Assembly: GCA_026394715.1 (NCBI GenBank)
Contig: JAPKXR010000175.1
Location: 1-38,254, forward strand
Direction: 5' to 3'
From: Methanomicrobiales archaeon
Lineage (GTDB): Archaea > Halobacteriota > Methanomicrobia > Methanomicrobiales > Methanospirillaceae
Length of the DNA: 38,254 nt
The notes beneath the pieces are model-generated. The model saw only the letters and a list, made by a program, of their open reading frames with translations. It did not search any database and was not told the origin of the DNA. Position numbers and translations under genes: made by a program. This document shows positions 1,126-38,254 of this stretch, one piece after another; positions within the stretch are counted from its first letter, which is position 1; each line of letters begins with the position of its first letter.

Positions 1126-1785
1126 CTATTGTTTTGCGGGGGTCACCCGGGGCTTCATCCTCGAATGCGTGATTGTCAGTAATACCCCCAGAATTACTCC
1201 AAATAGAATGAAGCTTAAAACCCAGTCTGTACCGGTCATGACGTTATGCGCTATCACGTACCACGCCACAACAACACAATAGGGTATGAGGAGTAGCATC
1301 GTGGTGAACAACCCGGGATTGTACCCTCTGTTTTTTAGCTGGAATGTAATTACATGCTGCAGGTTGTTAATTGCGAACTGGAATAGAATTGCCGCGAAAC
1401 CTATCCACGGTATCGCATAGAATACGGCCCCTATAATTACCCATGGCCATATCAATAGCGGGTTCACAAGAAATATATAGGGTTCATTGAGTGGTACATC
1501 CTCCCGGTTATCACCGGTCGCAAGAATGGTTTTTGTATTGATGAAATGTTTGAATCCTCCGGGTGCAGTATATTCCTCGAATTCATGGATCATAATCACT
1601 GGCAGGTGCAGCCAGAGAAGCCATTGATACATGTTCAGTGCGGGGGAAGTGAAGAACAGGATAGCCAACAGCGTAAATAAAACCGGGGCTGTGAAGGCGC
1701 CGATTAACTGCCACGCTGTGTTGAGTTTCGTAAAAATACGGTCTATCTTGCCAGGATCGTATTTAGTATCAGTCAATGGTACCAC
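1126..1785 (-). CDS. HXXEE-family integral membrane protein
   Basis: A 219-residue hydrophobic protein with about five to six predicted membrane segments. The diagnostic motif HEFEEY lies near residues 67-72, in a segment between hydrophobic helices. It matches the HxxEE signature of the HXXEE family (Pfam PF13787), whose function is unknown. The conserved His and acidic residues suggest metal binding or hydrolysis within the membrane (family-level speculation). A later NNLQHV motif would supply another histidine. The start is a GTG at 1785. An AAGGA lies about 9 bases upstream and a strong TATA box 25-37 bases upstream, so the leader is very short. It appears monocistronic. Confidence 0.75.
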   Translation of the reverse strand: MVPLTDTKYDPGKIDRIFTKLNTAWQLIGAFTAPVLFTLLAILFFTSPALNMYQWLLWLHLPVIMIHEFEEYTAPGGFKHFINTKTILATGDNREDVPLNEPYIFLVNPLLIWPWVIIGAVFYAIPWIGFAAILFQFAINNLQHVITFQLKNRGYNPGLFTTMLLLIPYCVVVAWYVIAHNVMTGTDWVLSFILFGVILGVLLTITHSRMKPRVTPAKQ

Positions 1786-1808
1786 GGATATATTTCCTTA
1801 TTACTTGG

Positions 1809-1822
1809 TTTTATATAATAAA
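1809..1822 (-). promoter_or_regulatory. TATA box of the HXXEE gene
   Basis: On the minus strand the sequence reads TTATTATATAAAACC, close to the archaeal TATA consensus. It sits 25-37 bases upstream of the GTG start at 1785. Transcription would begin roughly at 1788-1792, giving a leader of only a few bases. Confidence 0.5.
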
Positions 1823-2021
1823 TTCTATTCCGTGGGTTTCCTGTTTCCCGGATAGTTCAGGAATGTCAGATGATGTTGATCGCGTTTGCGATGTATCATT
1901 AAAAAAAGTCAAAATGCGTCGGTGCACCCCGCTGCAAGCATCGGGTCATGATTCGCACCTCCGCCTTATTGTTCTGTCGCCTCTATAGGTCATGGTTCAT
2001 CTTAGCACTAGATCGCCTTCC

Positions 2022-2056
2022 TTATCCCCGCAGCAAGCTGCGGGGTATTCGGATAA
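2022..2056. repeat. long palindromic hairpin, REP/mobile-element-like
   Basis: CCCCGCAGC (2026-2034) and GCTGCGGGG (2037-2045) are perfect complements around an AA centre. An outer pair TTATCC (2022-2027) and GGATAA (2051-2056) can extend the stem at the cost of a bulge (GGTATTC). The compact GC-rich stem with a bulge, outside any gene, resembles REP-type or IS200/IS605-end hairpins. It could equally be an RNA terminator. No second copy exists in this window. Confidence 0.45.
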
Positions 2057-2343
2057 AATAAAAGACGGGAAGAAGAATTAGTCGAAGTAGTGGTAACGAT
2101 AGCCTGAGATCACAGGACGGATGCAGATAACGAATGTTATTCACCTGAACTCGTTGAAGGTAAATAAAAGGCAATTTCTAAAATATGGCGACTGAAGGCA
2201 TATTGGCAAGAATAAGAGGACTTAAAAGGAGATTGAATAACAAATAGCCCCTGTCTCCAAATGATGCTTCCGGATACGAGAATAAGATTAAAGCAAGACA
2301 ATTTCGTCATGTTTAATACGTCCTTCATACAGGGTCTTGTCAT

Positions 2344-2769
2344 ATGAGGACTACCTTTCTGATCATTGTGATTATCCTTGCAGTACTAGCTGGCGGGTGC
2401 ACGATCCCGTCGCCCACAGCAGGAACAACTACAGCAATACACGATGTTATCGGTATTTGGACAGGTATGACATACGGGGATAGTCAGACCGAAGGATTCC
2501 GGCAACATGATAAATCGAGATATAACATCTCAAACCAGAAGGGTTACGCTTTTTCTGGTTCGAAGGAGTACATTCGTGGGGATGGAACAACCCATTACGA
2601 GAATTTCTCAGGAATTGTATCAGGTAGTGGAGAGATATCTATGGCCGATAATCCAAAAGGCTATAGTTTCGGTAAATTAACCGGACCTGATACGATGGAA
2701 CTTCATTATGTTGAAGATGGCCCCGAAGCGAAAGCCTACCTTTCACTGCTCACCCGGCAGAAGAGGTGA
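2344..2769 (+). CDS. small predicted lipoprotein, function unknown
   Basis: 141 residues. The N-terminus is a signal peptide with a hydrophobic core and a lipobox LAGGC near residue 19. A Pro/Thr/Ser-rich spacer follows, then about 115 residues likely to form a small beta-barrel or sandwich: GIWTGMTYGD, repeated aromatic/Gly motifs, and a KLTGPDTMELHYVEDG hairpin. This layout (signal, linker, GIWTG start, GxLTGPDTMELHY end) recurs in methanogen secreted proteins of unknown role. There is no clear Shine-Dalgarno before the ATG, and a TATA-like TTTAATA about 28 bases upstream suggests a leaderless message. The product is probably anchored on the outer face of the membrane. Confidence 0.7.
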   Translation: MRTTFLIIVIILAVLAGGCTIPSPTAGTTTAIHDVIGIWTGMTYGDSQTEGFRQHDKSRYNISNQKGYAFSGSKEYIRGDGTTHYENFSGIVSGSGEISMADNPKGYSFGKLTGPDTMELHYVEDGPEAKAYLSLLTRQKR

Positions 2770-3602
2770 ATCGTCATTCTTTTTTGTATGAAAACGGTCA
2801 TGATGCCGAAAGACCACAAGCCTCCAGGATGAAAATGTCTGGGGGGTAACATTTTCATATTAGATCACGATCCCGGAGAGGAGGAAGATAAATAATCACC
2901 CATTCCCGGGATCAGGTCCGTTTCATGCCAAAATCTTGAAACGATAAATAGAAAACCAGTATAAAAAAATATCATGCAAAAAAAGTTCACGGGACATTCG
3001 TTTTGCGTTGATAGCTGTTCGCTAATTAAACCTGCACACTCATAAATCTGCTTTTAATGGGTTTTGTCCTTTTTCCGGCACTTTTCTTTATTTCTGCTTC
3101 ATCTCCTGAATTTTTGTATCAACCACCGGTAAGCTGTGATATGCGAAAAATATAGTAACCCCAATTTTGCCAGCCTGATCCATAACATTCAAAAGATGCT
3201 ACCTATCGGCACCAATTTTTTGTCAGGAAAATGAATTTGACAGTTCAGCAAATCATCACGTATTCCCGGATGAAATCCCTCCAATTTAACCTCATAATCA
3301 TTGAGTTAATGGCATCGGAGTTGGAGTAGACATACTTTTGGCCTTGCGTTCCCACGAATCCACAATGACGGTCAAATTCGAATGAGATTTTTTGATGAAT
3401 TTCGTGGAAATATGCTTGAAGTAAAAACTCTCTATCTCGTTAGAGAGATGAACAATTCAAAAGATATTCTTATTAAGGTCTTTTTTTTGGCACAATTACA
3501 GAGCCTCAAAACAAGTCAAATTCTTATCCAATTTTAAGCAAAAAAACCAAAATGGCAACGTTGGGTAGTACAGTCCTGGACCTTACATCAAAGTAACGCA
3601 AA
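2770..3602. other. AT-rich gene-free region with possible decayed coding sequence
   Basis: About 830 bases, visibly richer in A/T than both flanks and with no open gene of convincing length. Short protein-like readings exist on both strands between about 3170 and 3535. One is a stop-free plus-strand run of about 75 codons ending near 3536, lacking an early start. Another is minus-strand pieces that shift frame near 3310. They conflict with each other, and none matches a family I recognise. The composition suggests a decayed or acquired segment. Confidence 0.4.
2829..2858. terminator. 10-bp perfect inverted repeat after the small lipoprotein
   Basis: ATGAAAATGT (2829-2838) and ACATTTTCAT (2849-2858) pair perfectly around a 10-base G-rich loop. 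It lies 60 bases past the stop at 2769. It could be a transcription terminator or a protein-binding dyad. Confidence 0.4.
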
Positions 3603-4358
3603 TCAGGTCTGTTTTACCGCAGCAATGATGTAGTATGTCTTGCCTGGTGCGAATCTCCGGTACAAAGGCTGTCGTGGTTTCTGCATCTCCTGGATATACA
3701 TTAAATCGCGGTAGGAGATGACAGCGAATCCCGCGTGCTCCAGGTCAGATACCATTGCTTCCTTTGGTACACCCCCATCGTAGGGCAGCTCGCTCCTGAG
3801 TTTTTCATCATAATGGCCACCATGGGTATGACCGAAGATTTTTGCCAGCCCGTCACTCACTATCCGTTTCACCCTGATTGAAACGCTATTATCCTTCCAG
3901 ATACCCTCAATGATAAGAACAACACCTCCTTTTTTTAAGACACGGTTCCATTCATCCAGGGCAATCTCCGGATGAGGGAGTGTCCAGACGAGGTGCCGGT
4001 TGACAACCACGTCAAAAGATGCGTCATTGAACGGAAGGTGTTCGGCATCCCCAGCCATCAGATCAATCGAAAGTTTTTGTGCATCAGCCTTTTCGCGCGC
4101 TTTTGCCATCATTGCTTCCGAAAGATCAATCCCGGTAACCTCGTGTCCCATCTCAGCTAGCAGAAGGCCCATAACGCCAGTTCCGCACCCAACATCGAGC
4201 ACCTTTTCTGGTGATTCGGGTAGGATACGGGCCAGTTCCTGTTTCCATGCGACGTTCTCTTCCCCGGTCCCGATCCCGTGGCCGGGACAGCCATCATACT
4301 TAACTGACGAGTCGTCCCAGCTCTTCCGGACAGCATCCTTGATCTCATGGTCATCCAT
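3603..4358 (-). CDS. class I SAM-dependent methyltransferase (Methyltransf_11 type)
   Basis: 251 residues. Motif I, VLDVGCGTG, lies near residues 53-61 and binds S-adenosylmethionine. The acidic end of strand 2 is GIDLS, motif II is the AEHLPFNDASFDVVV region, and LKKGGVVLIIEG is the post-II strand typical of small-molecule methyltransferases such as UbiE/Methyltransf_11. The N-terminal WDDSSVKYD and the C-terminal YRRFAPGKTYYIIAAVK resemble archaeal members annotated only as class I methyltransferases. The substrate is unknown. It is probably cytoplasmic and monocistronic. The AAGG in its leader is a weak ribosome site. Confidence 0.85.
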   Translation of the reverse strand: MDDHEIKDAVRKSWDDSSVKYDGCPGHGIGTGEENVAWKQELARILPESPEKVLDVGCGTGVMGLLLAEMGHEVTGIDLSEAMMAKAREKADAQKLSIDLMAGDAEHLPFNDASFDVVVNRHLVWTLPHPEIALDEWNRVLKKGGVVLIIEGIWKDNSVSIRVKRIVSDGLAKIFGHTHGGHYDEKLRSELPYDGGVPKEAMVSDLEHAGFAVISYRDLMYIQEMQKPRQPLYRRFAPGKTYYIIAAVKQT

Positions 4359-4513
4359 ATGAAACCTTACGGGAATATCGTTAATGCTGGATACTTTATC
4401 AGGGGTTTTAGATAAACTTTTCAGATGTCCATTCGTCAGTACCGCGTCCGGAGCATCCCTGACGGAAATGTAATCCTCTTTTCTTCGCTTTCTAATGCTG
4501 CATTAACTCCGGA

Positions 4514-4529
4514 CGAAGCGGACGCTTCG
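4514..4529. repeat. short GC-rich palindrome
   Basis: CGAAGC (4514-4519) and GCTTCG (4524-4529) form a perfect 6-bp stem with a GGAC loop, in the spacer between the divergent methyltransferase and cutA genes. It may be a small terminator or REP-like hairpin. It also falls within a 39-codon reading frame (4425-4544) that I do not call a gene. Confidence 0.3.
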
Positions 4530-4706
4530 CATTCTTATTACTGAATCGTACACAGATTATACGTTAAAGGCCCATTAATCTACCACTGATTGGATTTTTC
4601 ATTTTTTCCGGCTCACGTCAGGTAGTATGGATCCTGCGGTTGAGCGGTCGGAAACATGGCGTCGGGTTCATATCCAGTGCAGATCATAAAGGAAAATGAC
4701 AGAACT

Positions 4707-5048
4707 ATGAACCAGACATCTGACGTCCCGGTTATTATCCTCTCCACTGCCTCACCTGACAATGCAAAGACTATTGCAAGAGCACTCGTCGGGGAAAGAA
4801 TTGCTGCCTGTGTGAACATGACCAGTGTTTCGTCATATTATCACTGGAAAGAGGAATTCTGTGAAGATGCCGAGACCCTCCTGATCATCAAGACAATGGA
4901 TTCGAAAAAAAGCGAAGTGATGGATGCCATCCAGCGCCTCCACACGTATGAACTTCCTGAAATGATTGTCATTCCCATCACAGGGGGATTTCCACCCTAC
5001 CTCTCCTGGCTGAAAGAGGAAATTGTAACGGGGGGTCCGCCTGGCTGA
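4707..5048 (+). CDS. cutA: CutA-family divalent cation tolerance protein
   Basis: 113 residues from the preferred start; CutA proteins are usually 100-115. Family marks in order: VIILSTASPDNAKTIARALVGERIAACVN across strand 1, helix 1 and the conserved Ala-Cys-Val-Asn; YHWKEEFCEDAETLLIIKT for the central hairpin; TYELPEMIVIPI; and the C-terminal YLSWLKEE. CutA forms very stable trimers in the cytoplasm. Its link to copper or other divalent cations comes from bacterial genetics and its biochemical role is not settled. An upstream in-frame ATG at 4656 would add 17 residues that do not belong to the family, so I chose 4707. AAGGA lies about 15 bases upstream of it. Confidence 0.9.
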   Translation: MNQTSDVPVIILSTASPDNAKTIARALVGERIAACVNMTSVSSYYHWKEEFCEDAETLLIIKTMDSKKSEVMDAIQRLHTYELPEMIVIPITGGFPPYLSWLKEEIVTGGPPG

Positions 5049-5194
5049 GGGCCGGGCAGGATTGATCGTGCCACCATGTCGCTTGCCTATCGTCACGGTA
5101 TACCACATGAACAGGCTAAATAACCAGCCTGTCCGGGGATAACTCGCACTATTGAAATAGACGGAGCCCGCTAATTTAGGTCAGGTAGATCAAA

Positions 5195-5674
5195 TTGCCG
5201 GATACGAAAACAGAACCGCAGGACGCACTCATTCTCCTCGGGTGCCCGCAGGTACCGATACAGACGAGTGTCGCATTATACCTCGCCAGTAAGCTCCGCA
5301 AGAAGGGAATTACTACGGTGATCACCGGGAACCGGGCGGCAAGAACGAATATCGAAGTTGCTGATCCTGACCGCCACTATATCGGTGAGGTGATCGATAT
5401 CGACCGGTGTGTTGCCCTGCTCGCAGAAAAGAAACGGGATTTTCATTTCTGTTTTTCGTTTATTCATAATGATGCCGGGCTTACCTACGCTGCAACAGTG
5501 AAAGCGATCTCCCCGGCAGCCCAAATCCTGATCATCTTTGGTGAGCATTATCAGGAAGTGGCATCATCGGTGGATTTTCCTGCCGAAATAATTGCAGTAA
5601 ATGCAGTGCATAACCCGATGCCGTTAAAGGCCAAAATAGATGAGGTGTTCCCATGGGTTGTCTCGAATCTATGA
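5195..5674 (+). CDS. DUF1890 family protein (methanogen-specific)
   Basis: 159 residues starting at TTG 5195, with AGGT about 10 bases upstream. The N-terminal half (ALILLGCPQVPIQTSVALYLASKLRKKG, then TVITGNRAARTNIEVADP) has the beta-alpha-beta pattern of a Rossmann-like fold. This matches DUF1890 (PF09001), a family found essentially in methanogens. Later marks are HYIGEVIDIDRCVALLAEK and FIHNDAGLTYAATVKAI. No enzymatic role is established. The stop at 5672-5674 overlaps the DUF1894 gene, and the two families commonly occur together, so they are probably co-translated and may act as a pair. Confidence 0.8.
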   Translation: MPDTKTEPQDALILLGCPQVPIQTSVALYLASKLRKKGITTVITGNRAARTNIEVADPDRHYIGEVIDIDRCVALLAEKKRDFHFCFSFIHNDAGLTYAATVKAISPAAQILIIFGEHYQEVASSVDFPAEIIAVNAVHNPMPLKAKIDEVFPWVVSNL

Positions 5675-5931
5675 AGCATGAAATTATTTTAAGGGATGCG
5701 AGTTTCAGGGAATGCAGGGAATACATTCTTTCACACTTTCCTGAACATTTCGAGGTACTGCCCGGGTACAAGATCTTTGAAAAGTATCTTATCGGCGTCC
5801 CCCCGCTCTACATCGCCGTTGACGGGGACGACGTAATTATACCCTATACGAAGCCCTGTTACGGGACGTTCCTTATCCGGGTCCCGGACCCGGAAATGGT
5901 CACTGAATTACGGCAGAAGAAACCAAAATAA
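5653..5931 (+). CDS. DUF1894 family protein (methanogen-specific)
   Basis: 92 residues, matching DUF1894 (PF08979) in length and pattern: FRECREYI near the N-terminus, FEVLPGYKIFEKYLIGVPPLYIAVDGDDVIIPYTKPCYGTFLIRV through the centre. It is a small predicted cytoplasmic alpha/beta protein of unknown function. Two starts compete. ATG 5653 has GAGGTG 5 bases upstream and overlaps DUF1890 by 22 bases. ATG 5671 gives a 4-base ATGA overlap. The stronger Shine-Dalgarno favours 5653. A T6 tract right after the stop (about 5934-5939) may end the transcript. Confidence 0.8.
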   Translation: MGCLESMKHEIILRDASFRECREYILSHFPEHFEVLPGYKIFEKYLIGVPPLYIAVDGDDVIIPYTKPCYGTFLIRVPDPEMVTELRQKKPK

Positions 5932-30456: not shown

Positions 30457-32733
30457 ATGAGATCCGGCTCCCTGATCCCCACCCTGGTAATCATGTTCGT
30501 TTTTATCATTCCCTTTGTAAGTGGAACGGACCTCGTCATCACACAACCGAGCGTGAACGAAACTCACCTGGCAGAGATGCGTGATTTTTACGTGTACGGG
30601 ATATATCCAAAAATGGTCGCATACCCAGGAAACATTAAGATCGAGGTGTTTTCCGGGGATTCCGCCACCGGCACACCGGTCCGGGTAGTCCAAAGTATGG
30701 TCGACCCGGCCACCGGCATCACCAACGAAAGCGTGATCGATAGCACCTACGTGAATGGCACCCGGAAAAACAATGTGATGGTCCCGGATTTAGTGAAGGC
30801 TCCCGGGGGTATCCTGGACCCCTCCAACAAGCTGGTGGTGACGAACAACTACTATCTTGGGCTCGTCCTCGGCGGTGTCACAAAAGATTTTGATACCCGT
30901 TACACTGACAGCCATGGGGACCCGCTCACCGACCTGGCAGCAGGTAACTATACGATCAGGGTAACCGGGCTCTCCGGGGACTTCGCCGGAACGGTTACAG
31001 AAAAGACCGTGACGTTCGGCATCACTGACGCAGTCCTTGGATCGGTCCGGGCCATTCCGAATAAAAATGCCATCATCCAGTATGCGATCACCCATAACCG
31101 CCGTGCCTATTTCGACTGGTTCCCGGGGTACTTCACAGACCCAATCGACAGCAGCAAGTGGTACGAAGCACCTGGCCGGTGGAAACCAAACAATGGGATT
31201 GAGGTCGTGAACGACCGCCCGGGTCCCCTCATCGACACACCTCTCGTCGCGAACAACACGATGTTTGTCTATAATATAAACAACGGCAGCGCGACGTACA
31301 AGATTGAACTTGCTGCTATTCTTCGGTTCAACCTCGAGGACAGCACTGGTACAACCTTCCTCTCCTATGACATCGGTGAGCCCTCCATTACCTACAACGA
31401 TGCAGGTTGCGGCAGCGTGCGGACTGTTTCCGGGACGCCTCTTCCCTTCCCCCCTTCATCCCGGTTGAATGTCGCCCGGGTGGAAATTATCAACCAGACC
31501 ACTATGCGCTACGAAAACCTCTTTGACCCAAATGATGCAACGACACCAAAAAACCTGGACTTTGACTCATCCGACGGGATCACCTTCCCATCAGGGAAGG
31601 AGTTCATCATCTATGGGGCAACAAAGCCGATCGCATCTCAAGTGACTCCATTGTCCACACGGTACGAATTCTCCATCAACAACCGGATCACCCGTGTCAG
31701 TTGCATGATCACTGATTCAGGGGGGCAGGTCGTTTCCACGACCCTGCACGATGTGAACCTGTCCCGGCTGTATACACCCGGGAGCCCGGCACGGTTCAAC
31801 TCGCTCTGGGAGTTCGGTATTGAAGTTACGGGACTGACAAAACCCGGCAATTATACGGTTAATCTTATAGGTTCCGATTCATCGGGCACTGTCGTTCCCG
31901 GGACCAGCGCAATGTTCACCGTCACCGTTCTTCCCGTCGCAGATTTCACCGGCACCCCGGTGACCGGGAACGCTCCATTTTCTGTCCAGTTCACAGACCT
32001 TTCCACGGGACCTGTCACCTCGTACGCATGGGACTTCACCGGTAGCGGGAGAACCGACAGCACGCTGCAGAACCCGAACGTTACCTACACCAATGCCGGA
32101 ACGTACCCGGTGAGACTGAATATCACGGGACCCGGGGGGTCCGCTACCCGGGTCAGGACTAATTACATCACCGTAAATCCAGCTCCAAAACCAACGTTCT
32201 TCGCAGGCTTCACCGTCTCACCCGTGAGCGGGACTGCTCCCCTGACGGTGAAATGTACCGACAAATCTATCGGAGACCCGACCTGGTCAGTTTACGATTT
32301 CGGGGACGGAACGAATGTGACGGGGCCGAATCCTTCACATACCTACCGGTTCCCGGGCGTTTACACGATTACCCTGTCCATTATGAAATATAACACCACG
32401 ACCTGTTCCATCATGGGCAGCACCGCAACAAACCCGAATGCCATTACGGTGAACAGTGTACCCGTGGTCCCCGTGGTTGCGAAATTCACTGCATCACCAG
32501 TCAGCGGGACTGCTCCCCTGGCGGTTTCCTTCACTGATCAGTCAACGGGAGACCCCACATTCTTAAATTATGATTTCGGGGACGGGATCAATGCAACCGG
32601 TAAGGACCTGGTACATATGTACCGGTTCCCGGGGGTCTACAATGTGACCCTTTCAATTTTTAAATTTGATCGCACTAGCGGCTCGATGCTCAGTGATGCA
32701 TCTGTCCAAAGGAGTCTTATCGTGGTCAAGTGA
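30457..32733 (+). CDS. secreted surface protein with three C-terminal PKD domains
   Basis: 758 residues. Residues 1-24 are a signal peptide (SLIPTLVIMFVFIIPFVSG). Residues about 25-480 form a beta-rich region of unknown family, with MTEN-like Asn/Thr-rich stretches, GNYTIRVTGLSGDFAGTV and GNYTVNLIGSDSSGTVVPG repeats that look Ig-like. PKD domains begin at about 491, 581 and 673. Each opens with F(T/V)xxPVxGxAPxxVxFTDxSxG and holds the YDFGDG or YAWDF signature and the FPGVYxxTLSI strand. The second and third are close duplicates. PKD modules mediate protein or polysaccharide contact on archaeal surfaces. There is no C-terminal membrane anchor, so it may be released or bound non-covalently. 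No Shine-Dalgarno precedes the ATG. Confidence 0.85.
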   Translation: MRSGSLIPTLVIMFVFIIPFVSGTDLVITQPSVNETHLAEMRDFYVYGIYPKMVAYPGNIKIEVFSGDSATGTPVRVVQSMVDPATGITNESVIDSTYVNGTRKNNVMVPDLVKAPGGILDPSNKLVVTNNYYLGLVLGGVTKDFDTRYTDSHGDPLTDLAAGNYTIRVTGLSGDFAGTVTEKTVTFGITDAVLGSVRAIPNKNAIIQYAITHNRRAYFDWFPGYFTDPIDSSKWYEAPGRWKPNNGIEVVNDRPGPLIDTPLVANNTMFVYNINNGSATYKIELAAILRFNLEDSTGTTFLSYDIGEPSITYNDAGCGSVRTVSGTPLPFPPSSRLNVARVEIINQTTMRYENLFDPNDATTPKNLDFDSSDGITFPSGKEFIIYGATKPIASQVTPLSTRYEFSINNRITRVSCMITDSGGQVVSTTLHDVNLSRLYTPGSPARFNSLWEFGIEVTGLTKPGNYTVNLIGSDSSGTVVPGTSAMFTVTVLPVADFTGTPVTGNAPFSVQFTDLSTGPVTSYAWDFTGSGRTDSTLQNPNVTYTNAGTYPVRLNITGPGGSATRVRTNYITVNPAPKPTFFAGFTVSPVSGTAPLTVKCTDKSIGDPTWSVYDFGDGTNVTGPNPSHTYRFPGVYTITLSIMKYNTTTCSIMGSTATNPNAITVNSVPVVPVVAKFTASPVSGTAPLAVSFTDQSTGDPTFLNYDFGDGINATGKDLVHMYRFPGVYNVTLSIFKFDRTSGSMLSDASVQRSLIVVK

Positions 32734-32854
32734 TTATAAATCTATAACGATCTTTTTTCTCAGCGGCGACACCTGCCCCGTGCAACGAATTTTAACCTGT
32801 TATAAACGCGTCCTGTCCATTTCGGTGGAGGGTAGTAAAAAAGCCTGTATTTAA

Positions 32855-33073
32855 CTACCCCTTCCTCTTCAACTTCTCAACTAATCTCATCACCCGCTCC
32901 TTCGCTTCATCGGTTGCGATGGCATCCTTCGTAATCGTAATGTTGACAATATCCCCGTCAATAATCCCCGCCAGAAAAATTGCCGGCAAATTGAATTTTA
33001 CTTTCTCATCCCCACGTAAAAGAAGAACCGCCAATTCTCCTTCAATCCTATCCACGGTCGCTGTAATTTTCAT
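32855..33073 (-). CDS. DUF3006 family small protein
   Basis: 72 residues: MKITATVDRIEGELAVLLL, then KVKFNLPAIFLAGIIDGDIVNITITKD, and a C-terminal helix ERVMRLVEKLKRK. This matches DUF3006 (PF11213), a short beta-barrel-like domain with a VDRIE(G/D)xxAVLLL opening and a GDxV turn, usual length about 70. Its function is unknown. In bacteria it often accompanies MBL hydrolases, but no such partner lies next to it here. It is convergent with the PKD gene. Confidence 0.8.
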   Translation of the reverse strand: MKITATVDRIEGELAVLLLRGDEKVKFNLPAIFLAGIIDGDIVNITITKDAIATDEAKERVMRLVEKLKRKG

Positions 33074-33217
33074 CGTTATCCCTCACATGCACTACCATTC
33101 TTATCTCCATCCTACTGATGAATGTCACTCTGGCCTGACGATATGCAATAGTCATAGCGGGCCTGGGCCGCAGCATCCCAGGAGATCAATAACTCAATCC
33201 TACAGACTTTTTCTGAA

Positions 33218-33506
33218 ATGAAGACAAAAACAGAACGCATGAGTTCGGACAATACGATCCTGACGATCACGTTCATCTCGATGATCATTGTTATTGTCGT
33301 CACCTTTGTCTTTGCCATGAGTCTCTCCAGGCCGATCAGACGGCTGACGGGAATCGCAGATACGGTAAGCATGGGCAAACTGGATGAGGAGACCGAACGT
33401 CCATACAACGATTGAGATCAACGACCTTGCAGAGTCGTTCACGCGTATGATCAACGCCTTTAAGATCATGGTCTCGCAACAGGACGGGGAGGAGGAAATG
33501 AAATGA
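33218..33506 (+). pseudogene. HAMP-domain membrane protein gene, frameshifted
   Basis: The intact frame from ATG 33218 (or 33239) gives a membrane helix (TILTITFISMIIVIVVTFVFAM), then the HAMP start SLSRPIRRLTGIADTVSMGKLDEE, and stops at 33415. Moving one base near 33391-33396 restores the rest of the HAMP domain: TNVHTTIEINDLAESFTRM, then INAFKIMVSQQDGEEEMK, ending at TGA 33504-33506. The frame is also open upstream to 33158 with a coiled-coil-like stretch (SQEINNSILQTFSEM), which suggests a lost N-terminal sensor domain. It could be a true pseudogene or a base-calling error. The next gene starts with a 4-base overlap (ATGA). Confidence 0.7.
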
Positions 33507-33727
33507 CACTCGGACAGGACTTCGTAGCTGCCCCTGGCAAAGGACCTCGGGCCCTCCGCACCCCTGTTCCTGAAACGCCAATATGAGGCCCACCTGAAGA
33601 AATCCCCCTCAAGCTCACAAAAGCCGACCTGGATGAACTGGCAAAATGGTGCTTTAACGGTGTTAATATCTCACGGGGAGAACAGACAGCGGATAAAGTA
33701 AAAGATAATATTATCCGGTTGAAATAA
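33503..33727 (+). pseudogene. small gene downstream of the HAMP protein, two frameshifts
   Basis: Reading ATG 33503 in its own frame gives MTLGQDFVAAP and then stops. Shifting at the C-run near 33531 gives LAKDLGPSAPLFLKRQYEAHLKKSP. Shifting again at the C5 run (33604-33608) gives LKLTKADLDELAKWCFNGVN, then ISRGEQTADKVKDNIIRLK, ending at TAA 33725-33727. The rejoined product of about 75 residues is continuous and protein-like. It is helical, with a conserved-looking KWCFNG motif. I do not recognise the family. The ATGA overlap with the HAMP gene indicates the two formed an operon. Confidence 0.65.
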
Positions 33728-34038
33728 CCGGGCACTTATTTTTTAAGGCGAAAAAAACCTCATAATTTATGGCTCATTCCCCAGGTTTGGTCCTCCGGAT
33801 CCTTCCCGTGACGAAAAAGAGCTCGATGGAAAAATGTTCGTCCCCGAAAAAAAATTCCACTACCTGGGATAATATCGGTTTCCGTTTCTGAACACCATTC
33901 ACCACCTGGCGAGTGGGGACCTGTTGGTGCCCGGCTGTCTTGGCTGCCAGGGTATCACCATCTGTTGGGTGAAGCCCTATACTCCCGCTTCAGGGGACAC
34001 GGGATATCCTGCTCATTGGTCGTGTGACGTAATGCCCC
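33728..34038. other. intergenic stretch with possible CheW-like fragment
   Basis: About 310 bases between the broken small gene and the true end of the chemoreceptor. On the minus strand a stop-free run from about 33990 down to 33774 includes VVEFFFGDEHFSIELF, which resembles the opening strand of CheW. It has no start, the continuation does not match CheW, and an A8 run falls inside it. No gene is called. Confidence 0.3.
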
Positions 34039-34088
34039 TCATACCTTGAACTTGGCGATCTCTTTTGAGACATTGTTCACAATCTTGT

Positions 34089-36431
34089 TCACACCACCCA
34101 TGACCTCCGTGATCTGGTCAATGGACGCGGAAGTGCAATATCCTTGAATGACCGGAGTGTCTGACTGAGTGCCTCGCTTCCGGCTTTCACTTCACGGTTG
34201 GATGATGCGACGGCTTCACCAGCCGCGATGGACTTCTTCTGGAGCGTTGCGATCATGTCTGCAATATTCTCAGCAGATGCACGGGACTCCTGTGCCAGCG
34301 ATTTCACTTCTGTTGCGACCACCGCAAAGCCCCTGCCTGCTTCTCCTGCCCGGGCAGCTTCAATTGCAGCATTAAGGGCGAGCAGGTTCGTCTGGTTCGC
34401 AAGATCGCGGATCAGGCCGACGATTTTACCGATCTTGTCCATTTCTGCCTTGATTTCGACAATGATCTTCTCTACTTCGGCTGATGAGGTAGTGATGCTC
34501 TGCATACCCCGCTCTGCCTGCTCAGCAAGGCCAGTACCTTTCACGCTCAGCGTATTTGCGTCCTCGGTGAGTTGTGATACCTTTTCAGCCTTCTGGGCAA
34601 CATCGGTCACTGTCCGGTTAAGGTCTTCCATTGCCCGTAATACCTGGCCTATCCCGTCACTTCCTCTCGCAGCATTCGTGCTGACACCTGCCGCATTCTT
34701 TGCGATCTGTTCTGCACCTGAAGATACTTCTTCAATACTGGCATTTGCTTCCTCTGCACTTGATGCGAGTTCCACAACCTGCTGGTTGATCATGACCATT
34801 GCCTTGGAGACCTCAATACCGGTATTGTTGAGTGCATCTTTTAACTTGACGAAATCACCTTCTACGTGAAGTTTTTCATCAACCCGGGCAGAAAAATTAC
34901 ATTTTGCAAATTGACCGGCCGTCCGCATCACTTCGTAGACCGGGTAGTAAACCTCTTCCAGAGTCTCATTCATTCCCTCAACGATCTTCTTGTAATCGCC
35001 CTGGTGTTTTATCGCATCCGCCCGGACTTTGAGTTTTCCTTCCATGGCAGCCTTTGCCAGCATATTTGCATCGGTGATCATGCTGGTGAGGGCACCCCGG
35101 ACATCCGCCAGGTTATTATTGATCCCGGCAAAATTGGTGTACGCATTTTTTGTATTTTCGGTTGGGAGTGCAAGGGTAAGGTCGAATGCGAGATTCCCCG
35201 TCGCAAGCTTCCTGAGGTTCGATGAGAGGGTAGCGAGATAGATATCGGTGAAATCTGCCAGGTCTTTTTTTGCCTGTTCTACTTTTCGTTTTCCGGTGTT
35301 GTCCAGGTATGTCGCCATCAAGCTGACGATCTCCCCTTCTTTATTAAGGAGAGGGATGGTATGCTGTTCAAGGAACTTAACCCCTGTCGGAAACTCGACA
35401 ACTACATCCCCGGTAACACCTTTCTTTGTCTGTACCGCTTCCCTGATCCCATGGCCACTTTTCTCGAGCACCTTGAACTCTTTTAAGCTCATCTTCCGGA
35501 GCCGTTCACTGGAATACCCGCTCAGGGTGAGGAATGCCTCATTGGCAAGTTCGAGGTCCAGTTTCGTCGACATGATCAGGAGTGGTATGGGATTTTGCAT
35601 GATCATGGAATGCATCAGTTGTTTCTGATTTTCCGCGTCTGAGGCCGCCGTCTTTAAGTCCTCCGCCGCAACGGTACGGGCGGTGATATCGTTATACACG
35701 GATAAGAGGTTCACCATCTCCTGCTTCCCGTTAAAGAGCGGGATTGTATACCGCTCCCACACCATGTCACCGTTTGGGAACCGAAATGTTGCTTCTCCCG
35801 TTACCGGGCGCCTGTCCCGGATACTCTCGTCGATACCCTCCCCTTTTTTATCGAGGTAAACAAAGTCCTTCAGATGGGAGCCAAGAGTTTTCTCACGGCT
35901 CCAGCCTGTCTTTTCGATAAATGCCTCGTTTGTTTCGATAACATTCTTCTCCATGTCCCATAAGAGGATGGGAGTAGGCAGTTTCTGTAATAGTTGGGCG
36001 GTCGTTTCCTGGAGACTGCGGGCCTCTTCCACTTGCCTGCGCTGCTCGGTAACATCGGAATAGAGCGAGATGACGCGATAAATTTCACCTGTATCATCGA
36101 AGAGCGGGATTGTGTCGTGGACGAAGAGGATATCCCCTTTTGGGACACGAAATGTTGCCTCTCCACTGACTACCCGTTTCTCCCGCAGGCATTCTGCGAG
36201 GCCTTCCCCTTTTTCATGGGACGTAATAAAACCTGCAAGTTGTTTACCGATTACCTGCTCCCGGGTATACCCGGTTGCTTCAATAAAAGCTGCATTGGTT
36301 TCAATTACCCGCCTGCCAGGGTCAAATACCAGGATTGGAAGGGGATTTAAACTGATAAATCCTTCCATTGCCCCTTTTAAACGTCGTAATTCGTTAAGCT
36401 CTGCGTTATCCACTTCAATGTTTTCAGCCAT
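34089..36431 (-). CDS. cytoplasmic methyl-accepting chemotaxis protein with three PAS domains; C-terminus frameshifted
   Basis: 780 residues as read. Three PAS domains open with [22 protein letters not shown] (about 28-130), [21 protein letters not shown] (about 150-260) and [21 protein letters not shown] (about 280-385). A HAMP-like segment follows (about 440-540). The MCP signalling coiled coil (about 550-770) has the hairpin tip [46 protein letters not shown]. There are no membrane helices, so it senses inside the cell, perhaps redox or ligands through PAS. The last 14 residues as read (from LPRPLTR) are out of frame. Shifting one base near 34127-34143 gives [20 protein letters not shown], then VSKEIAKFKV, ending at 34039, the normal MCP end. 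CheW/CheA partners are not nearby. Confidence 0.9.
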
Positions 36432-36977
36432 GTTTTCCTTCCCGTTTTCCCTGGTGTAAGGTCCCCGGCCCCTCCCTGGAATGCGATTGCCTGAAAAAAT
36501 TATTCAGGTAAGAGGGCTGTTTTGTGAGAAACTATCCTGATGTATACTACTACAAAATATGGCTCAATAAAGCTTTGTCTTCTCTCTTTTGTCCGGGCAG
36601 AGTTACCTGGGTCAAACCCGGCTTCCGGGAATGATTGTTCCCGATCACGTTGATGAGGACCGCAAAAGAGCTAGGCCGTTGTCAGGTATGCAATCATTAA
36701 GCTGTTTCGGTACTCACAGATACAGGGATGCGGAAAGGACGGAGATCTGGCCGGCAGTGTTATGAACACTTGGCATGGGACTGGGTGAAAAGTTCCATGT
36801 GTAGTGGGAATTTCAGCATGGGGGTCCCATAAAAATTACTCAGGAAATAATTAACAAATAATCCGGCGCCGGTATACCGGATGCCCAGGCACGGGTTAAT
36901 CGTATCTCAGGGTGGGCATTCAAGTGACCATGGACAATTTTTGGAAGTGGTAAATCCTGCGATTAAGGAGGTCTTTT
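36432..36977. other. upstream region of the chemoreceptor gene, no gene seen
   Basis: About 545 bases. It must contain the promoter of the chemoreceptor (minus strand); AT-rich candidates are CCATATTTTG and CTTTATTGAG around 36555-36575. A weak inverted repeat CCTGAA/TTCAGG lies at 36490-36508. I see no coding sequence. Confidence 0.4.
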
Positions 36978-37209
36978 ATGGGACTTTGGAAAAGGCTACA
37001 ACCCAATAAAGGCCAGATTTAGGTTGGATTAGGGATAAATCGCTCATTTTAGCCTTATTCATCATCTAGTCCAATCGGAGCCAAATGCGGGCGATTTAAA
37101 CGAACGAGAATGGATTTTACGGGTTGGGGTGGGGTGTGTATACCTCGTTAGTGGTATCGTTTCGATAATTCGGGCGCAAAGTAGAGGAATTTTCCTTCTT
37201 TTGGAGTAA
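36978..37209 (+). pseudogene. small membrane-protein gene broken by two frameshifts
   Basis: A perfect AAGGAGGT (36965-36972) sits five bases before ATG 36978, but the frame stops after 14 codons (MGLWKRLQPNKGQI). A second frame continues as DLGWIRDKSLILALFII (37016-37066). A third continues as VQSEPNAGDLNEREWILRVG, then VGCVYLVSGIVSIIRAQSRG and a short end, to TAA 37207-37209. Joined, this is a protein of about 75-80 residues with two membrane helices. The strong ribosome site and the protein-like pieces in three frames indicate a real gene that is decayed or carries base-calling errors. I do not recognise the family. Confidence 0.5.
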
Positions 37210-37265
37210 CGTAGGTGAGCCAGGGGTACCTGCAGGCGTTGTTGGATGACTAGCCAGATCTGGAC

Positions 37266-37442
37266 ATGCCTGATTCGTTTAGATTTGTAGCTATTGGGTC
37301 AGGGTCTGGTTTTGGATCGATGAGCTTCAGTGCGAGGAGTCCGACGGGAATTGATAATATTACTGAACTCGGGTATGTGAACTCAATCGGTAAGGACCCG
37401 ATGGCCAGCGGTCGGTTTAGCATCGGTGAGGACGTGCGGTGA
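37266..37442 (+). CDS. doubtful 58-residue open frame, possible remnant
   Basis: ATG 37266 to TGA 37440-37442 encodes a soluble Gly/Ser-rich peptide (FRFVAIGSGSGFGSMSFSAR, then SPTGIDNITELGYVN). The frame is also open upstream from GTG 37215 except for one TAG at 37251-37253. There is no good ribosome site. Given the broken gene just upstream, it may be part of a decayed secreted protein. It may also be chance. Confidence 0.2.
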   Translation: MPDSFRFVAIGSGSGFGSMSFSARSPTGIDNITELGYVNSIGKDPMASGRFSIGEDVR

Positions 37443-37627
37443 ACGTCGTTTGCGAAGACCTTTGATGTGGTGGGATAAGGGGCGGGTCCACAATATCAGG
37501 GGCCAGTACCCGGTTAAACCCGGTTTATGATTATTATTTAAGAGGGTCTTGAAATAACTCCATTGCAATGTAACCATACTCTTAATTCCCGTTAATTCCT
37601 AATACCAGATCATAGCAGGGACTAGGG

Positions 37628-37951
37628 ATGCCAGTACAGGTTGCTTCACACCGGCGAAAAAATCCAACGTTCGACCAGCTGAAAGCGGTGTTTCCAGCAG
37701 TCCGTGACATGTATGGAGTGAAACGGATTGGTATATTTGGCTCGTTTGCACGCGGCGAGCAGACACGGAAGAGTGATGTCGATGTAATCGTTGAATTTAT
37801 TCCAGGGCATGAAACGTTTAAAAATTTCATACATCTCGTGGATTTCCTCGAAGCACTCTTTCACCGGAATGTAGACTTATTGACCGAGCCCTCACTTTCC
37901 GAACTCATCCGCCCCTATATCGAAAAGGACGTGATCTGGATTGAAGGATGA
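37628..37951 (+). CDS. mntA: MNT-domain nucleotidyltransferase antitoxin MntA
   Basis: 107 residues. The nucleotidyltransferase signature GSFARGE followed by DVD fits the minimal GSx10DxD pattern exactly. It comes after the KRIGIFG strand, and VDLLTEPSLSELIRPYIEKDV closes the fold. In MntA-HepT systems the MNT protein neutralises its HEPN partner by AMPylating a tyrosine near the HEPN active site. The gene overlaps hepT by 11 bases. TTATTATTTAAG near 37531-37542 is a candidate TATA box, and an AGGG lies right before the ATG. Confidence 0.88.
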   Translation: MPVQVASHRRKNPTFDQLKAVFPAVRDMYGVKRIGIFGSFARGEQTRKSDVDVIVEFIPGHETFKNFIHLVDFLEALFHRNVDLLTEPSLSELIRPYIEKDVIWIEG

Positions 37952-38254
37952 TCGCGTCCTTTTGACACATATCCTAAAGGAAATGGCGTTTCTGAAGAAG
38001 ATCTGCCGGGGCCGCAGTTCTGATGATCTCCTACAGGATGATTATTTTTCCCATGCGGCGATCCGTGCTATTGAAGTTATTGGCGAGGCCTCTAAATCCA
38101 TTTCACCAGCATTAAAGGCCAGACATCCGGAAATTGACTGGCGGGAAATGGCAGGGATGCGGGATTACGTCATTCACAGGTATTTTGAGATAAACTGGAA
38201 TATTGTCTGGGATGTTATCAGTAACGAAATTCCTGTCCTTGAACCAAAGATAGC
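37941..38254 (+). CDS. hepT: HEPN (DUF86) toxin HepT, cut by window end
   Basis: From a TTG at 37941, 104 codons are visible before the window ends; HepT is usually about 110-120 residues, so little is missing. The start reads KDDRVLLTHILKEMAFLKK. SHAAIRAIEVIGEASKSISPALK and HPEIDWREMAGMRDYVIHRYFEINWNIVWDVI are characteristic of DUF86. The RNase motif RX4HXY is present as RDYVIHRY, including the tyrosine that MntA AMPylates. It overlaps mntA by 11 bases. It is likely a stable RNase toxin controlled by the upstream antitoxin. Confidence 0.85.
   Translation, partial: MKDDRVLLTHILKEMAFLKKICRGRSSDDLLQDDYFSHAAIRAIEVIGEASKSISPALKARHPEIDWREMAGMRDYVIHRYFEINWNIVWDVISNEIPVLEPKI

Follow-up and report, generated by a model that had tools for sequence, protein, structure and literature searches.

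A probable remnant of a duplicated Af1503-like receptor and its stand-alone STAC partner in a Methanomicrobiales genome

Genes and lesions at the locus

The window, a stretch of 38,254 nucleotides of DNA from a Methanomicrobiales archaeon, contains near its right end a frame with HAMP similarity that is open from position 33158 and is closed by a TGA stop at 33413-33415. A second frame extends from 33384 to 33506, and its terminal ATGA (33503-33506) is at the same time the start of a small frame of 27 residues, which ends with a TGA at 33584-33586. These are the two open frames with an ATGA overlap described in the original prediction, found again at 33158-33586.

A search for an intact adjacent pair was successful both in other genomes and in the same assembly, where contig C87 contains an intact 323-amino acid receptor, composed of a sensor, transmembrane (TM) helices and a HAMP domain, and an intact 74-amino acid partner, whose genes share an ATGA overlap. 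On C87 this pair faces the gene of a PAS-HAMP-MCP chemoreceptor, also intact, of 851 amino acids. Within the stretch 33100-33800, the window and C87 copies share 91% identity across about 610 bases, and for this reason a chance open frame was excluded. Alignment to C87 showed that the receptor pseudogene (33170..33506, forward strand) retains only the last 111 or so of 323 codons, encoding the second TM helix and the HAMP domain, whereas the first 212 or so are gone, with a breakpoint at 33170-33183; it is a broken member of the Af1503-like receptors. The pseudogene of the small STAC-like partner, aligned to the intact 74-amino acid gene, occupies 33503..33727 on the same strand.

All three predicted frameshifts are present with respect to the intact copy: the receptor remnant contains one extra base near 33396, and the STAC remnant contains an extra base at 33531 and lacks a base near 33613. 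The last of these had been placed near 33604. The CCCCC run found there does not differ in length between the copies, and the base was lost about 9 bases further on; hence, of the two shifts that had been attributed to C-runs, the one at 33531 does fall in a longer C-run and the third does not. The mismatches clustered at about 33408-33412 may represent a further compensating pair of shifts. In the STAC remnant the second shift restores the frame that the first one changed, as might happen if full proteins were made by programmed frameshifting. This explanation is hardly conceivable, since it would involve three shifts across two genes, the start of the receptor is missing anyway, and the matches listed in the family and phylum searches, with the exception of the window copy, have no internal stop.

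The damage at the locus is far larger than three shifts. Tail to tail with the pair, on the reverse strand, lies a second copy of the chemoreceptor gene (34089..36431), which encodes 780 amino acids as compared to the 851 of the intact protein and has lost the end of the signalling domain. At 34124-34133 it contains 10 bases in place of the 173 present in C87, with a net loss of 163 bases, and the MCP signalling domain is matched up to position 134 of 172, as compared to 170 in the intact copy. The whole duplicated block spans 33170..37481 and is inverted relative to C87, where it corresponds to 1333-5815; the two copies are 89.2% identical over 3365 columns and 89.1% identical over 958 columns (blastn). 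To the left of 33170 the window does not match C87, and on the right flank (37201-38254) no match to C87 was found beyond 37482. When the genomes of the genus were searched with the DNA, the block was found in one of four, its own (of the remaining three, one has a completeness of 65%).

In C87 the block has a repeat on either side (locus L010, 1281-1564 and 6798-7082). The same repeat is present in the window at 37257-37482, where it marks the right end of the block. The repeat overlaps a gene of 240 residues without a Pfam match. The two adjacent genes at 37628-38252 resemble a nucleotidyltransferase-HEPN toxin-antitoxin pair.

The left end of the block is joined to part of a multi-copy unit (32854..33183, reverse strand), consisting of a DUF3006 gene, open at 32855-33073 (DUF3006 match, E 2e-13), and of the broken end of the adjoining gene. 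The junction was mapped by BLAST of positions 32701-33300 against stretches of six contigs, and stretches of the DUF3006 unit, 79-87% identical, were found on contigs C318, C296, C342, C176 and C368. The homologies to the C87 receptor and to the DUF3006 unit of C318 share the 14 bases at 33170..33183, suggesting that recombination took place where the sequences were briefly similar. The DUF3006 family is unrelated to the receptor pair and serves here only as a marker of the breakpoint. The end of the neighbouring gene is common to the copies of this unit, some of which look broken.

Decay of the window copy

The original prediction offered two readings of the locus: decay, or intact genes broken by indel errors of the assembly. 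The comparison between the receptor remnant and C87 gave a dN/dS of 0.72, with 6, 13 and 12 differences at the three codon positions. For the two copies of the chemoreceptor, dN/dS was 0.17, with 35, 27 and 113 differences. Comparisons between intact genes of relatives gave 0.08 for the receptors of genomes G083 and G076 and 0.08 for the proteins with two TM helices and a HAMP domain (2TM-HAMP) of G252 and G344, and the four comparisons between intact STAC genes gave 0.11, 0.45 (G252/G344), 0.08 and 0.08, the last two with dS above 1. Judged by its substitutions, the receptor remnant shows relaxed selection. The value of 0.32 obtained for the STAC remnant derives from 72 codons and is by itself no sign of decay; one of the intact STAC comparisons gives 0.45.

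Taken together, the 5' truncation, the second large deletion and the relaxed selection go beyond what single-base assembly errors can produce, and they support decay. Indel errors of the assembly in genes that the organism keeps intact are a very unlikely explanation. The draft genome is indeed fragmented and one of the three shifts falls in a C-run, but errors of this kind cannot remove 212 codons and fuse the remainder to a DUF3006 unit, nor can they delete a net 163 bases of the neighbouring chemoreceptor gene. Moreover, the other two shifts lie outside longer runs, and no indel was observed among the 765 aligned codons of the chemoreceptor (MAFFT alignment). The long frames located elsewhere in the window, of 929, 758, 721, 594 and 554 amino acids, are open.

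It might also be supposed that the fragment was kept as a short new gene, for example as a 65-residue TM-HAMP peptide interfering with other receptors. The 65-residue frame is open and has a partial HAMP match, and short 2TM-HAMP proteins do adjoin STAC genes in relatives. This alternative is nevertheless extremely unlikely, given that the substitutions are spread over all codon positions with the dN/dS reported above, that the HAMP match stops at position 28 of 53 of the model, below the cut-off, and that the intact gene has ATT in place of the ATG at 33218.

The assembly is a draft of 402 contigs, with an estimated completeness of 98.18% and contamination of 0.89%, and therefore C87 could stem from a related strain binned with the genome, in which case the window would contain the organism's own decayed copy and not a paralogue. 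The difference of about 11% between the copies would be in line with this possibility, which we consider unlikely: the contamination is low, the GC contents are close (0.511 vs. 0.518) and the flanks of the two copies differ, with no match on either side of the block.

The intact pair and its relation to Af1503 and Af1502

The intact C87 receptor has an extracellular sensor, TM helices (the helices as read from the sequence) and a HAMP domain at residues 260-307 of 323 (E 3e-12), which is its sole cytosolic part and is followed by no curated domain. In a phmmer comparison it matched the Archaeoglobus fulgidus Af1503 construct 4cq4 over residues 48-315, nearly the full length, with an E-value of 7.2e-9; on the basis of this similarity, the receptor is a homologue of Af1503. 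It gave no match to Pfam dCache_1, which is matched by 7 of the 40 upstream proteins scanned in the collected loci. The AlphaFold2 (AF2) model of the receptor was of low confidence (mean pLDDT 69.8), and the model and its Foldseek matches, among the best 50 of which Af1503 was absent, were too weak to be used.

The intact partner consists of 74 amino acids, with an LGPSA motif at positions 15-19. The glycine and proline of the LGP motif are invariant in the 27 members chosen for A2; of the unchosen ones, L053 has GK and L028 has SP. When profiles built from 27, 13 and 35 members were searched against the PDB, Af1502 (5a1q) came first in all three cases, with E-values of 0.01, 0.085 and 0.0082 and with matches confined to the LGP half, and an unrelated thermosome chain was the runner-up each time (E 0.021, 0.17 and 0.15). 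The AF2 model of the partner (pLDDT 87.6) has three helices, as compared to the four of the Af1502 crystal structure described in PMC4834066. In a second look at the fold with VIA, Af1502 was the top match (Z 8.1, rmsd 2.3 Å over 67 residues, next row 5.6), with the caveat that Z values below about 13 may reflect an arrangement common among helical bundles. In Foldseek, Af1502 ranked sixth and third by E-value (about 1), behind PH0832, with TM-scores (0.70 and 0.64) that were the highest among the matches listed.

These results point with modest strength to Af1502, a published stand-alone STAC protein, as the protein that the partner most resembles. Neither the profile relation nor the fold is sufficient alone for STAC membership; the evidence for it is receptor homology, gene order, size and motif taken together, to which profile and fold add modest support. 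No match above a curated cut-off was found when six intact small proteins were scanned against Pfam and four against NCBIfam; weak similarities in NCBIfam to a VapB antitoxin model (E 0.003 and 0.03; 18 and 15 bits vs. a cut-off of 60) were rejected. A possible resemblance to DUF8082 was set aside once Af1502 emerged. The primary STAC paper is reportedly that of Korycinski et al. (2015, J Mol Biol).

The partner had been proposed to be undescribed, and this is most likely wrong: the pair fits the Af1503-like receptors with a stand-alone STAC protein, in print since 2015 (PMC4834066). There, Af1503-like receptors are described as having HAMP as their sole cytosolic part and as being often coupled to proteins of 60-90 residues such as Af1502, which is translationally coupled and bears the motif LGPx(x)A; Af1502 is described as a relative of the CbrA STAC domain that is too diverged for ordinary sequence searches to connect it with its kin (PMC4834066). 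The likeness of the C87 pair to Af1503/Af1502 consists in a receptor that ends in HAMP without an effector, a small helical partner encoded directly downstream by an overlapping gene, the LGPxA motif and the sequence match of the receptors reported above. The window copy differs in being truncated and frameshifted. The gene context also differs, because the operon Af1505-Af1502 starts with an MgtE-like transporter (PMC4834066), whereas the C87 pair faces a chemoreceptor gene. A related small helical domain is present, according to the profile searches published there, in the SLC5/STAC histidine kinases CbrA, CrbS and RpuS (PMC4834066); in these proteins STAC is fused between transporter and kinase, whereas the C87 STAC is a separate gene beside a HAMP receptor.

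Distribution and neighbourhood of the pairs

Of 108 genomes of the family, 11 encode homologues of the 74-amino acid protein, and a profile search detected homologues in 21 of 392 genomes sampled from the phylum (own genome included in both counts). They also occur in three records titled Chloroflexi or Dehalococcoidia, which are draft metagenome bins, so that misbinning is possible. One of these homologues is L068; in a sample of 400 genomes from its phylum, eight were positive, one being the L068 genome itself and the other seven containing fusions.

A HAMP protein is encoded directly upstream in 38 of 45 STAC-like loci, the window's own copy being excluded. Forty upstream proteins were scanned for HAMP, and the domain was absent from two of them (L028 and L053, read from the sequences); five loci (L050, L051, L052, L058 and L059) were kept outside the scan and counted as misses, because no HAMP-like frame lies upstream. 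In L050 the upstream frame is reductase-like, and in the other four there is none of use. The two genes overlap by four bases in 10 of the 38 pairs and are 3 to 27 bases apart in the remaining 28. Together with the intact C87 pair, for which we infer translational coupling from the ATGA overlap, this arrangement strongly supports the prediction that the small protein truly belongs with a HAMP membrane protein.

Some of the exceptions may be broken pairs. The same reductase-like gene precedes both L050 and L038; L038 retains receptor and STAC, whereas in L050 the receptor and the beginning of STAC are apparently gone, through independent decay. In L028 (G093:C241), a STAC-like frame lies behind a 76-residue frame without a recognisable HAMP, and this looks like another decayed pair. 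A different architecture was observed in L051, L052 and L058, where the domain is at the C-terminus of proteins of 299-358 residues with no HAMP upstream.

Directly behind HAMP receptors, STAC also forms the N-terminal part of long proteins, both in the phylum of L068 (L073-L079) and in an archaeal locus (L024). TPR matches were above the Pfam cut-off in L024 and below it in L073-L077 and L079, the six that were scanned of the seven L068-phylum fusions. In the proteins encoded directly downstream of STAC, Roadblock was matched above the Pfam cut-off in two of seven scanned (L044 and L046) and below it in three, with no match in the other two. Receiver proteins are encoded downstream in three loci, and two of these proteins have a HATPase match. 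The gene order in L044-L049 and L057 is a short 2TM-HAMP protein, STAC, a Roadblock-like protein and a further protein, whose Roadblock match in L046 is below the cut-off. In L022 and L023, STAC is followed by a PAS protein (scanned in L022) with two HAMP stretches, the ends of which are similar to those of the receptor.

Origin of the window copy and proposed working of the intact pair

The alignments show a truncated, frameshifted copy in the window and, on another contig of the assembly, an intact one. Very probably, the locus represents the 3' end left over from a duplicated unit made up of an Af1503-like receptor and a stand-alone STAC protein, placed tail to tail with a duplicated and damaged chemoreceptor gene. 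Recombination at the short similar stretch 33170-33183 would have fused the 3' part of the receptor gene to a remnant of the DUF3006 unit; once the normal start was gone, along with the sensor and the first TM helix, selection on the pair would have ceased and single-base shifts would have accumulated. The locus is a decaying duplicate of an already known kind of signalling pair, and recognising it as such guards against annotating dead DNA as an operon with frameshifts or mistaking it for a sequencing error.

As for the intact pair, a receptor dimer might sense an external ligand and change the packing of its HAMP helices; STAC, made in step with the receptor by virtue of the overlapping genes, might stand in for the absent effector domain, in that it would bind the output helices of HAMP and relay the signal to other proteins. 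We regard this scheme as evenly poised between right and wrong. The TPR fusions and the Roadblock and receiver neighbours provide supporting context for STAC as a signal carrier. According to a preprint, STAC in CbrA is packed against the transporter's base (PMC13022988), and two papers call the role of STAC unknown or elusive (PMC9100948, PMC7918813). Deletion of the STAC domain of CbrA is described as having no visible phenotype in Pseudomonas fluorescens and as lowering target expression in P. putida (PMC7918813); the deletion results are thus mixed, and the lack of a phenotype in P. fluorescens counts against the proposed scheme.

More tentatively, and with rather less than even confidence, we propose that in archaea and Chloroflexota the HAMP receptors that lack an effector may generally use stand-alone STAC proteins as their output module in trans, an adaptor connecting one kind of receptor to different downstream machines: TPR-like scaffolds (by fusion), Roadblock/LC7 platforms or receiver-kinase proteins. 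No title among the literature matches listed concerned STAC with TPR fusions or Roadblock neighbours, and novelty in print is not claimed. HAMP signalling is often studied in Af1503, which has no recognizable effector, and the intact pairs collected here, with their TPR-like fusions and Roadblock or receiver-kinase neighbours, are concrete candidates in which the path of the signal could be tested. The assembly that contains the window also encodes a second, different intact receptor-STAC pair, of the LERQT type (L034/L055; G000:C164:9682-9906).
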